35,626 nucleotides of DNA, from NCBI GenBank assembly GCA_903830425.1, contig CAIKTR010000194.1, forward strand, positions 1 through 35,626, read 5' to 3'. The position numbers were made by a program, and so were the translations under genes. Positions 1 to 4,189 of the stretch are shown here, piece by piece. Under the pieces are notes generated by a model. It did no database searches. It saw nothing but the letters and a program-made list of their open reading frames with translations, and was not told where the DNA came from. Each line of letters begins with the position of its first letter. Position 1 is the first letter of the stretch. Source of the DNA: an uncultured Opitutia bacterium. GTDB taxonomy: Bacteria; Verrucomicrobiota; Verrucomicrobiia; Opitutales; Opitutaceae.

Positions 1-1420
1 CCGCCGCGGCGGGGGCGGCCGCCGGGCGGGCGGCCCGCCGCCGGAGCCAGCCGGCGCGCAGTCGCACCGCCACCAGCCCCAGCAGCGCCAGCAGCAGGAC
101 GGTCCCCGCGACGGGATGCCGGTAGTCCACCCAGCCGGGCCGGGCCGCGCGCTGGCGTTCACCCTCGGCCGCCGCCTCCAGGCGCTCGCCAAACTGCCGC
201 GGGGTGATTTCCCCGCGCATCAGCCGCATCCGCGCGTCGGTCAGCGCCTGCCGGATCGCCGGCGGCTGGGAGAGATCTGCCGCGGTGTTGATCGCGGCGG
301 TGCTCGCCTCGATGAGCGCGGCGGTGGCGCGCATTTTTTCCGAGAAGGCGGCGCGCGGGACGCCCCGCACGGCCACCGGCGAGTCAACGGTGCGGACCCA
401 GGCCTCCGCGCGCTGCCGGGAGGTGAGGAAGCGCAGAAAGTCCACCGTGGCGCGCTCGCGCCCCCGGTCGCCGGTGGCGAAGACGAAGAAATAGTCGGTG
501 CCCACCTGCAGCAGGGTCGGATCGCCCGGGCCGTCGGCGTAGACCGGCAGCCGCATGGCCCCGAGTTCGAAGCCCGCGGGAAACTTGCCCTTCATTTCGC
601 TCACCATCCACGAGCCCGAGAGGTTCATCGCCGCCCGGCCCTCGAGGAGTTCCCGCTGGGCCGCGGTGTGGGTCATCCCCTGCCAGCCCGGTGAAAAATA
701 GCCGCCCGCCCGCTGCCAGGTGGTCACCGCGCGGAGAAACCGCGGATCGAGGTAAACCCCGGGAGTCGAGTTGCGGTAGGCCGGCCAGGCGTCCGCCCCC
801 GCGAGGTTGCACCACGCCGCGCGCAGCAGGCAGTCCGTGTAGCGCAGGTAGACTCCCGGCACGGAGAGGGGCGACCGGCCGAGCCGGCGGATGTTTTCCG
901 CCAGCGCGAAAAACTCGTCCCAGGTGACCGCCGGCCGGAGGTGGTGCTCGCGAAAGAACTTTTGGTCGTAGAACAACGTCCAGCAGGAATAGCTGAACGG
1001 CACGCCGTAGGTTCCGCCCGGCCCCTGCCAGGCCTCGAGCGCCCCGGGCAGAAAGGAGGCTCCCCAGGGCCTATCCCCCTCCCAGTTTTGCTCGCCGGAA
1101 AAATAGGGCGCCAGATTCAGCAGCTTTCCGGCCCGGATGAGCTGCGGCCACTGGATGTCCGCCACCGAGGCCGCGTCCGGCAGGTTGCCATCGATCAGCC
1201 GGATGCGGAGCTGGTCGGCAATGCGCGGATCGCCGTAGATCCGGATCCGGATGTCCGGGCGTTGCTGCTCGAACTGGCGAGCGGTCTCCTCGTAGAACGC
1301 CGTGCCGTAGCCGCCGGCAAAGACCGGGATGTCGAGGGTGGTGACCGCGGCGAGCCGGGAAACCGTTCCCCAGCAGAGCCAGGCGGCCAGCACCTGGCGG
1401 GTCAGGAACTTCCTGGTCAT
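1..1420 (-). CDS. Extracellular solute-binding protein with C-terminal membrane anchor (partial, runs off left edge)
   Basis: This open frame starts at ATG 1420-1418 and is still open at the window edge (473 codons visible). It begins with a basic, hydrophobic signal-peptide-like segment (MTRKFLTRQVLAAWLCWG). The body then resembles family 1 (sugar-type) ABC solute-binding proteins: 'FEQQRPDIRIRIYGD', 'YGVPFSYSCWTLFYDQ', 'NLSGSWMVSEMKGKFP' and 'FLRFLTSRQRAEAW'. Such proteins capture a sugar or oligosaccharide in the periplasm for an ABC importer. It is unusual in continuing past the binding domain into a hydrophobic stretch at about residues 437-453 ('GTVLLLALLGLVAV') followed by an Arg-rich tail. 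That suggests a C-terminal anchor or a fusion to a permease beyond the edge. Its ATG overlaps the ilvA stop by 4 nt and GGAG lies just upstream, so translation is probably coupled to ilvA. The family call is good; the substrate is unknown. Confidence 0.8.
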   Translation of the reverse strand, partial: MTRKFLTRQVLAAWLCWGTVSRLAAVTTLDIPVFAGGYGTAFYEETARQFEQQRPDIRIRIYGDPRIADQLRIRLIDGNLPDAASVADIQWPQLIRAGKLLNLAPYFSGEQNWEGDRPWGASFLPGALEAWQGPGGTYGVPFSYSCWTLFYDQKFFREHHLRPAVTWDEFFALAENIRRLGRSPLSVPGVYLRYTDCLLRAAWCNLAGADAWPAYRNSTPGVYLDPRFLRAVTTWQRAGGYFSPGWQGMTHTAAQRELLEGRAAMNLSGSWMVSEMKGKFPAGFELGAMRLPVYADGPGDPTLLQVGTDYFFVFATGDRGRERATVDFLRFLTSRQRAEAWVRTVDSPVAVRGVPRAAFSEKMRATAALIEASTAAINTAADLSQPPAIRQALTDARMRLMRGEITPRQFGERLEAAAEGERQRAARPGWVDYRHPVAGTVLLLALLGLVAVRLRAGWLRRRAARPAAAPAAA

Positions 1421-2631
1421 TGCTCCACGACGAGCGGAAAGCCGTGCCGTTTCAAGGCGCGCCGCAGGGCCGTGACATGGGGGTGGTCCCGCGTCTCGAC
1501 GGTGCAGACGACGTGCACGGCGGAGACGTCGGGTCCGCTGAAGGCGCGGTCGTGGGCGATGTCCTTGATGCTGGCGCCGGCGGCGGCGATCGCCCGGCAC
1601 AGGACCGCGAGCCCGCCCGGCCGGTCGCTGATCTTCGCGGTGAAGCGCGTCAGGCGGCCGTCCCGCACCAGGCCTTGCTCAATCACGCGGCTGAGAATGG
1701 CCGGATCGATGTTTCCGCCGCCGACCACGAGGACAACCCTCTTGCCTTTCAGCTTGGGCAGCCGGCCGGACAGCAGGGCGGCCAGCGGCGTGGCGGCGGC
1801 GCCTTCGACGACGGTTTTTTCCAGCTCCACCATGCGGAGAATCGCGAGCGAGATCCAATCCTCGCTCACGCTCACCACCTGATCCACCTGCCGCCGGGCG
1901 AGCGCAAAGGCGTTGGCCCCGACGGTCAGCGTGGCGAGTCCGTCCGCCAGCGTGGGCCGGCGCGGGACGGAAACGGGGTGGCCGGCGCGGAGGGCGGCGG
2001 CGAAGTTGCCGGTGGCCGCGCTCTCGACGCCGATCACCTGCACCCGGGGTTTCAGGCTTTTGACGGCGAGCGCCAAGCCCGCGATCAAGCCGCCTCCGCC
2101 CACCGGGCAAACAATGGCGTCAACGTCAGGCACCTGCTGGAGAATCTCCAGTCCCATGGTGCCCTGCCCCGCAATGATGGCCGGGGCGTCGAAGCCGTGG
2201 ATGTAGGTGAATCCCTGGCTGGCCACGAGGGCGTCGGCCTCCGCGCGGGCCTCGGCAAAATCCTGCCCGCGGATGAGCACCGTGGCCCCGAGGCGCTGGC
2301 AGGTGGTGATCTTGATGAGCGGGGCGTAGTCAGGCATGACCACGGTGACCGGGATGCCGAGCAGACGCCCGTGATAAGCCAGTCCCAGCGCGTGGTTGCC
2401 GGCGCTGGCCGCGATGACCCCCTTCTTTTTCGCCGCGGGCGTGAGCTGGAGCAGCGCGTTGCGGGCGCCACGCTCCTTGAATGAGCCGGTGCGCTGGCAA
2501 TTATCGAGTTTGCAGGAGATGCGCGCGCCCGTGATCTCGGACAGGGGAATGGATACCGGACAGGGCGAGACAATCAATCCGCCGGCGATGCGCCGCTGGG
2601 CAGCTCGAATGTCCTTCAAGGTAACAGGCAT
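1417..2631 (-). CDS. ilvA: Threonine ammonia-lyase with C-terminal ACT domain
   Basis: This 404-residue PLP enzyme belongs to the threonine/serine dehydratase (fold type II) family. It deaminates L-threonine to 2-oxobutanoate, the first step of isoleucine synthesis or a catabolic step. The PLP lysine lies in 'TGSFKERGARNAL' near residue 52. The glycine-rich phosphate loop is 'CPVGGGGLIAG', and 'VVLVVGGGNID' lies near the end of the catalytic domain. From about residue 325 a single ACT domain follows ('RFTAKISDRPGGLAVLCRAI'), the layout of the roughly 400-residue form rather than the longer E. coli biosynthetic IlvA with two ACT-like domains. The ACT domain implies allosteric control by an amino acid. 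The start is the ATG at 2631-2629. The stop overlaps the next gene's ATG, so it is probably the first gene of a two-gene unit. Confidence 0.93.
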   Translation of the reverse strand: MPVTLKDIRAAQRRIAGGLIVSPCPVSIPLSEITGARISCKLDNCQRTGSFKERGARNALLQLTPAAKKKGVIAASAGNHALGLAYHGRLLGIPVTVVMPDYAPLIKITTCQRLGATVLIRGQDFAEARAEADALVASQGFTYIHGFDAPAIIAGQGTMGLEILQQVPDVDAIVCPVGGGGLIAGLALAVKSLKPRVQVIGVESAATGNFAAALRAGHPVSVPRRPTLADGLATLTVGANAFALARRQVDQVVSVSEDWISLAILRMVELEKTVVEGAAATPLAALLSGRLPKLKGKRVVLVVGGGNIDPAILSRVIEQGLVRDGRLTRFTAKISDRPGGLAVLCRAIAAAGASIKDIAHDRAFSGPDVSAVHVVCTVETRDHPHVTALRRALKRHGFPLVVEQ

Positions 2632-2954
2632 CCTGACGGTCTAGTCCGGGCAAAGTCGGGTGGGAACCAGAAAGATCGCGGAGATTTTTTTCCTAGGGCA
2701 CCAACCCCACCCGATAGGTGTCTCCCGCCCCATCCAGATTAACGCTTCGAGCACGCCCAATCGGCTCTTTATCCTTCTCTCCCCCGGGAGCCTCCTTGAC
2801 TAATCGCCTGCCCCTTAATCATGGAATATCATTGCTGTCATGAAGATCGGTTGGAGACCTGATTTTATTGGCTCCCTAATCCAATAATAATCCCCAAGAA
2901 CATCCCTCGGCGTGACATCGGGCCCCAAGGCTGGTTAGGTGTGATTCGTCCTCC
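2632..2954. other. Intergenic region between divergent ilvA and the RelE-like gene
   Basis: This 323-bp gap is less GC-rich than its surroundings and should hold divergent promoters. A TTGACT at 2796-2801 resembles a plus-strand -35 box, but no convincing -10 box lies at 16-18 bp. A short inverted repeat, TTATTGG (2865-2871) with CCAATAA (2881-2887), has a 9-nt loop. The only plus-strand reading frames seen are about 14-15 codons long (from ATG 2821 and 2840), with no sign of being genes. No antitoxin-sized gene was seen before the RelE-like gene. Confidence 0.5.
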
Positions 2955-3308
2955 ATGTACCAAGTCACTTTTTCTGAACAGAGCATGCATGAGCTCAACC
3001 AGCTGGACAAGCTGGCCCAGCTCGACCTGATCGAGCCAATCAGCTCCCTGAAACCGGCGGATCTGGCTAATCCCCGCGAACCGCTCGGCCGTTTTCACCG
3101 CGGCAAGCGCGAGTATTACCGTCTGCGTTCGGGCGACTACCGCTTGTACTTCGAAATCAAGACCGAGTCCCTCCACACCCACTACATCCTTCATCGGAAC
3201 TCGCTCGAAGACTTTCTTTTACGCAATAAGTTGCCTGTGTCTGAGCAGCAGTTGGTTGAACAGAACTCAAAGTTTTGGAAATATCTGGAGAGCCTTACGA
3301 AAAAATGA
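2955..3308 (+). CDS. RelE/ParE-superfamily protein without a visible antitoxin
   Basis: This 117-residue protein has the central signature of the RelE/ParE fold, 'YRLRSGDYRLYFEI' at residues 55-68. Before it lies an N-terminal helix region with a Leu/Asp pattern, and after it comes 'YILHRNSLEDFLLR', where family members have the last strand and a conserved basic residue. Family members are usually mRNA interferases or gyrase poisons paired with a small antitoxin. No antitoxin gene is visible upstream (323-bp gap) or downstream. Its TGA overlaps the ATG of pssA (ATGA, 3305-3308), so the two are probably translated together. It extends about 25 residues past the usual RelE end, with a Lys-rich tail. 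Fold assignment is fairly sure. Toxicity is not shown, and it could be a domesticated regulator. Confidence 0.75.
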   Translation: MYQVTFSEQSMHELNQLDKLAQLDLIEPISSLKPADLANPREPLGRFHRGKREYYRLRSGDYRLYFEIKTESLHTHYILHRNSLEDFLLRNKLPVSEQQLVEQNSKFWKYLESLTKK

Positions 3309-4189
3309 AATTTCTCCGCCCTGATCCCGAAGATCTCGCTGCGCGCGAGGATCCTTACAACGTCACCCAGGCCAGCCGGATCTATTTTCTGCCCAACCTG
3401 ATGACGGCTGGAAACCTGTTCTGTGGTTTTGTCGCGGTCATTCATTGCATCCAGGCGCGCTTGGCGGAGACGGTTTCCACCGGCGAGTATCTGAACCAGT
3501 CCTCCTCCGGGCATTATACCCAGGCGGTGTGGTTTATCTTCGGCGCGGCGGCCTTTGATACCCTGGATGGGCGGCTGGCCCGCATGGGTGGGCGAGAATC
3601 CCTGTTTGGCGCGGAGTTCGACTCCTTGGCGGACATCATTTCGTTCGGCATCGCACCCGCGCTGATGGTTTTTTTCCTGATCCTTTCGCCCACCCAGGGT
3701 TATGAGCTTTTCCGCAACATTGGCTGGTTTATTGGCTTTATTTATCTGCTGTGCGCGGCGGTCCGGCTGGCCCGGTTCAATGTCATCACCAATCCCCTGC
3801 TTCACGGTGAAAAGAAGGATACCAACAAGGACTTTGTCGGCCTGCCTGTACCTGCGGCGGCGGCCACCGTCGCCTCGCTGGTTTTATTCCTGATTCACCT
3901 GGCGGCCATGGATAAATCCCTGCGGCTTTGGGCCCTGGCCCTGCCTCCCTTGATGCTCCTGATTGCGGTCCTGATGGTCAGTACCGTCCGCTATCCAAGC
4001 GGCAAGGGGGTGGATCTGCAGACCCGGACCCGTCTCCAGCCGTTTGTGCTGTTCCTGGTCTTTGTCGGCCTGGTGGTCGTCTTCAAGGAAGTCGCCCTGC
4101 TCTGCTCCTGCCTTGGTTATATCTTCTTTGGCCTGATTCGCCACTGGCGCCGGCCGGCCCGCCCGCGGATCCAAGCTAATCCGGTTTGA
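3305..4189 (+). CDS. pssA: CDP-diacylglycerol--serine O-phosphatidyltransferase
   Basis: This integral membrane enzyme of 294 residues transfers phosphatidyl from CDP-diacylglycerol to L-serine, the first committed step to phosphatidylethanolamine. The CDP-alcohol phosphatidyltransferase motif is complete: D88-G89-x2-A92-R93-x8-G102-x3-D106-x3-D110, within 'DGRLARMGGRESLFGAEFDS'. It is flanked by hydrophobic helices ('LPNLMTAGNLFCGFVAVIHC' at residues 29-48, then several after residue 115). The NLMTAGNLFCGF segment is typical of the type II PssA subfamily. The start is ATG 3305 because it overlaps the previous stop by 4 nt and the motif spacing fits the family; an in-frame upstream codon at 3275 lies inside the RelE-like gene. 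A related PgsA-type transferase is the main alternative, but the N-terminal features favour PssA. Confidence 0.92.
   Translation: MKFLRPDPEDLAAREDPYNVTQASRIYFLPNLMTAGNLFCGFVAVIHCIQARLAETVSTGEYLNQSSSGHYTQAVWFIFGAAAFDTLDGRLARMGGRESLFGAEFDSLADIISFGIAPALMVFFLILSPTQGYELFRNIGWFIGFIYLLCAAVRLARFNVITNPLLHGEKKDTNKDFVGLPVPAAAATVASLVLFLIHLAAMDKSLRLWALALPPLMLLIAVLMVSTVRYPSGKGVDLQTRTRLQPFVLFLVFVGLVVVFKEVALLCSCLGYIFFGLIRHWRRPARPRIQANPV

Follow-up and report, generated by a model that had tools for sequence, protein, structure and literature searches.

A Probably Domesticated RelE-Fold Core Protein, Paired with pssA in Opitutales and Found without a Conserved Antitoxin Gene

Introduction

Genes for type II toxins are generally regarded as accessory, mobile, and poison-like. 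For Escherichia coli RelE, the mutant data described in PMC2807027 report that the R81A/Y87F double substitution almost abolished activity and that Y87F alone caused no significant activity loss; in Mycobacterium tuberculosis RelE1, the catalytic tyrosine is given as Y89. The counts stated in PMC12654330 for marine Verrucomicrobiota MAGs comprise 83 orphan toxins versus 18 orphan antitoxins. In the portions of the open-licence literature covered here, no earlier description was found of the long RelE-like family to which the protein of this study belongs.

We analyzed a member of this family encoded in a 35,626-nucleotide stretch of an uncultured Opitutia bacterium (contig CAIKTR010000194.1), hereafter the window, and compared it with relatives across its order, class, and phylum. 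The protein is probably a domesticated, non-toxic core protein with a RelE fold.

Results

A RelE-Like Gene Overlaps pssA and Has No Adjacent Antitoxin Gene in the Window

The features of the locus are listed in Table 1. An earlier note on this DNA had described a RelE-like open reading frame (ORF) ending in an ATGA overlap with pssA, with no antitoxin gene beside it, and both statements were borne out. The upstream neighbor is a divergent ORF (1417-2631, minus strand), and the plus strand of the region between the two genes contained two overlapping ORFs, 47 and 41 codons long, but no antitoxin ORF. The pssA product scored 116.7 bits against the NCBIfam TIGR00473 equivalog cutoff of 107 and thus passes it. 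When the window's own genome was searched with PF05016 for further ParE/RelE proteins, only the RelE-like gene itself was returned. On the minus strand at about 2815-2850, a short reading, MTAMIFHD followed by a stop, resembles a remnant of the start of the divergent ORF that often overlaps a conserved upstream element in relatives (see below), and this suggests that a gene may have been lost in the window's genome.

Table 1. Positions of the RelE-like gene, pssA, and associated features in the window
Feature	Positions	Strand	Remarks
RelE-fold protein gene	2955..3308	+	117 aa, ATG to TGA; C-terminal tail conserved in most class members
C-terminal extension, residues 91-117	3225..3305	+	E97, F107, and W108 at ≥95% (173 sequences of the family); modeled with confidence 65-70
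R56 to R63	3120..3143	+	Arginines at E. coli RelE K54 and R61 positions; invariant in 173 sequences
R81, D86, F87, R90	3195..3224	+	R81 at the RelE general-acid position; D86 and R90 invariant
ATGA stop/start overlap with pssA	3305..3308	+	Within AAAAAATGA; TGA of the RelE-like gene and ATG of pssA
pssA, CDP-diacylglycerol-serine O-phosphatidyltransferase	3305..4189	+	294 aa, ATG at 3305
Intergenic region, divergent ORF to RelE-like gene	2632..2954	.	No antitoxin ORF; degenerate Opitutaceae upstream element near 2823

The Protein Is Assigned to the RelE/ParE Superfamily

Pfam ParE_toxin matched the window protein at E = 0.01, which lies under the curated cutoff, and an NCBIfam scan gave no match, while PHROG 1213, "RelE-like toxin," matched it at 2.1e-8. 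Among 68 family members, phrog_1213 matched 64 and Pfam PF05016 (ParE_toxin) 55 at E ≤ 0.1; NCBIfam and PADLOC scans of the family yielded scattered weak matches only. An AlphaFold model of the window protein had a pLDDT of 86, with 65-70 in the tail, and Foldseek with this model gave RelE chains as the best matches (2khe, 5.7e-5). In VIA, Thermus RelE reached Z 10.8 (rmsd 2.5, 83 aligned), E. coli RelE 4fxe Z 8.9, and ParDE chains Z 8-9, so that the RelE and ParE rows lie close in Z. A PDB sequence search ranked RelE chains first, and hhalign of the family against E. coli RelE plus 20 short RelE proteins returned a probability of 98.4. Predicted fold and sequence profile thus both place the protein in the RelE/ParE superfamily.

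The RelE-Like Gene Is Carried by Nearly the Entire Class

Among the nearest relatives, 36 of 38 genomes, the window's own included, carried the RelE-like gene, corresponding to 25 of 27 genera, and in the other nearest-relative genomes its product was 45-91% identical to that of the window. Nine same-genus comparisons gave dN/dS of 0.02-0.07, values that are rough because dS exceeded 1. The gene is under purifying selection, and these two results indicate that the window ORF is more than a chance reading frame.

In a sample of the class, 184 of 188 genomes carried the gene (165/167 good genomes and 110/110 genera), mostly as one match per genome and mostly over the full profile including the tail. 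In the five genomes of genus g57, the alignment ended at about position 98-101, indicating a short or diverged tail. In a phylum sample of 288 genomes, in which unlisted rows without a match were counted as out of class on the basis that rows run by kinship, 93 of 94 class genomes matched at E ≤ 8.6e-34, versus 18 of 194 genomes outside the class, where the best match was 8.3e-9 and the frames were 82-142 aa, most under 100. We infer that the class carrying the gene is Verrucomicrobiia. Outside it, a 120-aa open frame (G330:C33:29412-29714) matched profile positions 2-101 at E = 1.1e-6 and is possibly a distant long relative. The gene was kept in a putative Akkermansia muciniphila genome (2,664,102 bp) and in two putative Xiphinematobacter endosymbiont genomes (915,884 and 917,278 bp).

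Six genomes yielded no long member, four in the class sample (G064, G133, G165, and G175) and two in the order sample (G019 and G029). Re-searching them with a class-wide profile left five empty and returned only a short RelE-like match in G064. Because five of the six were rated at least 85% complete, three of these 96-98%, the gene may truly have been lost in some of them, the alternative being assembly gaps.

Pairwise identities of the RelE-like protein and of PssA were correlated over 114 linked loci in Opitutales (r = 0.84, 6441 pairs), and none of 500 permutations gave a value as high; the RelE-like protein was the more conserved of the two in 93% of these pairs. The gene looks vertically inherited. 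A mobile origin was also considered and was rejected, as searches of 72,556 plasmid and 50,697 phage records at E ≤ 1e-3 found no match to the RelE-like gene.

No Conserved Antitoxin Partner Was Found in Relatives

Twenty short RelE loci from 18 genomes of the same phylum, examined under the same candidate rule, served as the antitoxin control. A small adjacent ORF was present at all 20, and 19 of these ORFs fell into two homologous clusters. At the loci of the long family, a candidate small ORF was present at 17 of 55 outside Opitutales, with one similar pair among them, and at 35 of 85 within Opitutales, where clusters of 22 and 2 loci were formed. Both clusters proved to be a conserved upstream DNA stretch, AATAGCGTTGC, translated in differing frames, and the 22-locus cluster, which at first resembled an antitoxin, was rejected as one. 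Hence, no conserved antitoxin partner of the long family was found in the 55 non-Opitutales and 85 Opitutales loci. Six class genomes carried a long family member together with a separate short RelE that had its own partner ORF. PhdYefM antitoxin was absent from seven of eight genomes searched, and a RelB search of eight genomes gave one match, below the cutoff and inside a 1492-aa frame; as none of 14 control genomes gave a match, the RelB result carries no information. The conserved antitoxin-like gene just upstream in relatives, which the earlier note had named as a refutation, was not found, which supports its view of a domesticated, antitoxin-less RelE-like protein.

The AATAGCGTTGC stretch lay within 300 nt upstream at 55 of 80 Opitutaceae-type loci (L062-L141) and was found nowhere else in those loci. 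By eye, it often overlaps apparent signal-peptide codons of a divergent ORF and resembles a -35 region, with a degenerate form near 2823 in the window. The pattern GRAATAGCGTTGC matched 19 times in 17 of 41 family genomes, at 0-2 per genome, versus nine matches for the reversed control pattern, and at least 3 of the 19 matches sat 127-129 nt from the RelE-like gene. At this frequency, the element was rejected as a common promoter.

The Arginine Pair Is Invariant and the RelE Tyrosine Is Not Found at Its Expected Positions

Whether RelE catalytic residues are retained, a point raised by the earlier note, received a divided answer. A profile alignment set R56, R63, and position 81 at E. coli RelE K54, R61, and R81, respectively. 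R56 and R63, as well as D86 and R90, were invariant in all 173 unique sequences. Position 81, in contrast, varied, with Lys in 116, Arg in 41, and other residues in 16; the window protein has Arg. The catalytic tyrosine follows R81 at a distance of six residues in E. coli RelE and R85 at a distance of four in M. tuberculosis RelE1. From this spacing, positions 87 and 85 were taken as its counterparts, and none of the 173 sequences had Tyr at either. Position 87 was Phe or Trp in 159 sequences, and it is Phe in the window. The joint alignment set RelE Y87 opposite E97 rather than F87, making the tyrosine counterpart ambiguous; a Tyr occurred somewhere in positions 82-97 in 18 of 173 members, 14 of them at position 89. 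Two sequences from the genus Akkermansia combined A81 with F87. Judged from these residues, it is plausible that mRNA cleavage has been lost in the family. Nuclease activity of the window protein itself stays conceivable, because it keeps R81 together with F87 and RelE activity was not significantly reduced by Y87F alone.

The predicted pI was 8.8 for the window protein, with a family median of 7.9 (5.0-9.9) and 13 of 173 members at 9.3 or above, compared with 9.4-10.9 for the 20 short RelE proteins and 9.7 for E. coli RelE. The window protein is thus fairly basic itself. Most members are less so than RelE toxins, and their reduced positive charge speaks against A-site binding of the classical type.

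These data bear on an alternative that we regard as unlikely, namely, that the protein is an active RelE-type RNase kept in restraint, with the tail as a built-in antitoxin or with an unlinked antitoxin, and released under stress. The invariant R56 and R63, the Phe or Trp at position 87, the R81 of the window, and the conserved tail are all compatible with such an enzyme, and the alignment with isolated E. coli RelE (4fxh) spans positions 1-117 of the model. Counting against it, however, are the lack of any Tyr at positions 85 and 87 in the 173 sequences, the two A81/F87 members, which match the RelE-crippling R81A/Y87F combination as described for E. coli, a basicity below that of RelE toxins, and the seven of eight genomes without PhdYefM.

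Linkage to pssA Is a Feature of One Order

In Opitutales, the window's order, 61 loci from 58 genomes were obtained by search, and in 59 of them pssA lay downstream on the same strand, the exceptions being L053 of G158 and L056 of G163; linkage was scored with a PssA profile derived from Opitutales (E ≤ 1e-4). The same arrangement was present in 80 of 80 loci, a set overlapping the 61, that were taken from records named Opitutae, Opitutaceae, Opitutus, Cephaloticoccus, Lacunisphaera, Oleiharenicola, Opitutia, or Verrucomicrobia/Verrucomicrobiia bacterium. The pairing is thus conserved in relatives beyond the window's genome, and the other refutation named by the earlier note, its absence elsewhere, did not come about. 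Over 120 distinct linked loci, the overlap was ATGA in 51 and GTGA in 8 (59 with 4 nt), and the median gap was -1 nt.

In other orders, pssA was beside the RelE-like gene in 0 of 55 loci, 50 of which were flanked by 2 kb or more at each end. The gene pssA itself was detected in 182 of 188 class genomes (TIGR00473, E ≤ 1e-8), and its listed places outside Opitutales do not adjoin the RelE-like gene. All six genomes without a pssA match at this threshold retained the RelE-like gene, and all four without the RelE-like gene retained pssA. In the two putative Xiphinematobacter genomes, which have the RelE-like gene, pssA was weak (E = 5e-9) or undetected. Since the pairing is missing from the 55 loci of other orders and either gene occurs without the other, the RelE-like/pssA operon is stably kept within one order and does not represent the conserved function.

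Outside Opitutales, 19 close downstream genes were scanned, giving aminotransferase V in five, a VWA domain in three, no match in five, and one each of flavoprotein, LpxI, HAD, AsnC-like, SAM hydroxide adenosyltransferase, and SecDF head. Deducing the function of the RelE-like gene from these neighbors was dropped, as no theme was common to the 19. A class-V aminotransferase gene (L160, L163, L181, L183, and L189) or a VWA gene (L174, L177, and L186) lies closely 3' of the RelE-like gene, and several of these pairs share a 4-nt overlap with it.

The earlier note had offered as a role for the protein the regulation of pssA mRNA or a tie between phospholipid synthesis and translation. Such a regulator of pssA mRNA or PssA, acting in cis via the overlap, would fit the conserved adjacency and orientation in Opitutales and the short overlaps at about half of the linked loci, but as the job of the family it is not supported: the pairing was seen in none of the 55 loci of other orders, the two genes were never lost together in 188 genomes, the RelE-like gene persists in the putative Xiphinematobacter genomes beside a weak or undetected pssA, and other lineages have different downstream partners. 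We consider this role quite improbable.

Discussion

Taken together, the near-universal distribution, the strong purifying selection, and the lack of a conserved antitoxin partner make it fairly likely that the long family represents a vertically inherited core gene of the class, descended from a RelE toxin and now encoding a non-toxic housekeeping protein. On this reading, mRNA cleavage would no longer be the main job of the protein, which might bind RNA or the ribosome through the retained RNA-facing surface of RelE (R56/R58/R63). The conserved tail, which bears a Phe-Trp pair, could fold onto the body or hold a partner, thus taking the place of an antitoxin; this placement of the tail rests on a model confidence of 65-70. 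In Opitutales, the RelE-like gene would lead a translationally coupled pair in which pssA is its transcript mate and not a general target. A more specific version can be put forward only tentatively, in which an ancestral RelE toxin would have become an essential, non-nucleolytic RNA or ribosome component of the whole class, with the tail replacing the antitoxin; as the gene is retained even in a putative 0.9-Mb endosymbiont, its loss may be lethal.

Descent from a ParE-like gyrase binder, now a modulator of DNA topology, is very improbable: the Pfam match is to ParE_toxin, ParDE chains score well in VIA, and RNase residues are absent from ParE proteins as described in PMC11980606, but RelE chains are the top sequence and Foldseek matches, although close in VIA Z, and the RelE arginine pair is invariant.

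A slowly evolving RelE-fold gene at the core of a whole class, with Akkermansia among its carriers, would provide a clear example of a domesticated toxin. Some of the genes annotated as "toxin" without an antitoxin in these genomes could be accounted for in this way, and the family points to a core function still to be named, testable in lab-grown Verrucomicrobia.

The orphan toxins of marine Verrucomicrobiota can be set beside the family by their description only, as the text of PMC12654330 at hand resolves neither a family nor a core distribution. The PVC signature protein CT421.2, as described in PMC3444138, is likewise small, lineage restricted, conserved, and annotated as hypothetical; it differs, again by that description only, in spanning the PVC phyla and in its length of about 53 to >80 aa. 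With the ParE gyrase toxins (PF05016), the family shares the Pfam entry that it weakly matches, and those toxins, too, are described as lacking RNase residues; unlike them, it ranks RelE chains first in Foldseek and in the PDB and has no conserved partner gene. E. coli K-12 RelE and the short RelE/ParE toxins resemble it in fold, in the YR strand motif, and in the arginines at K54 and R61. The long family differs from the RelE toxins in that it has no antitoxin partner, Tyr is absent from positions 85 and 87, the R81 position is variable, and the protein is less basic, and, whereas those toxins are patchy in distribution, it is near-universal in its class and carries a C-terminal tail.
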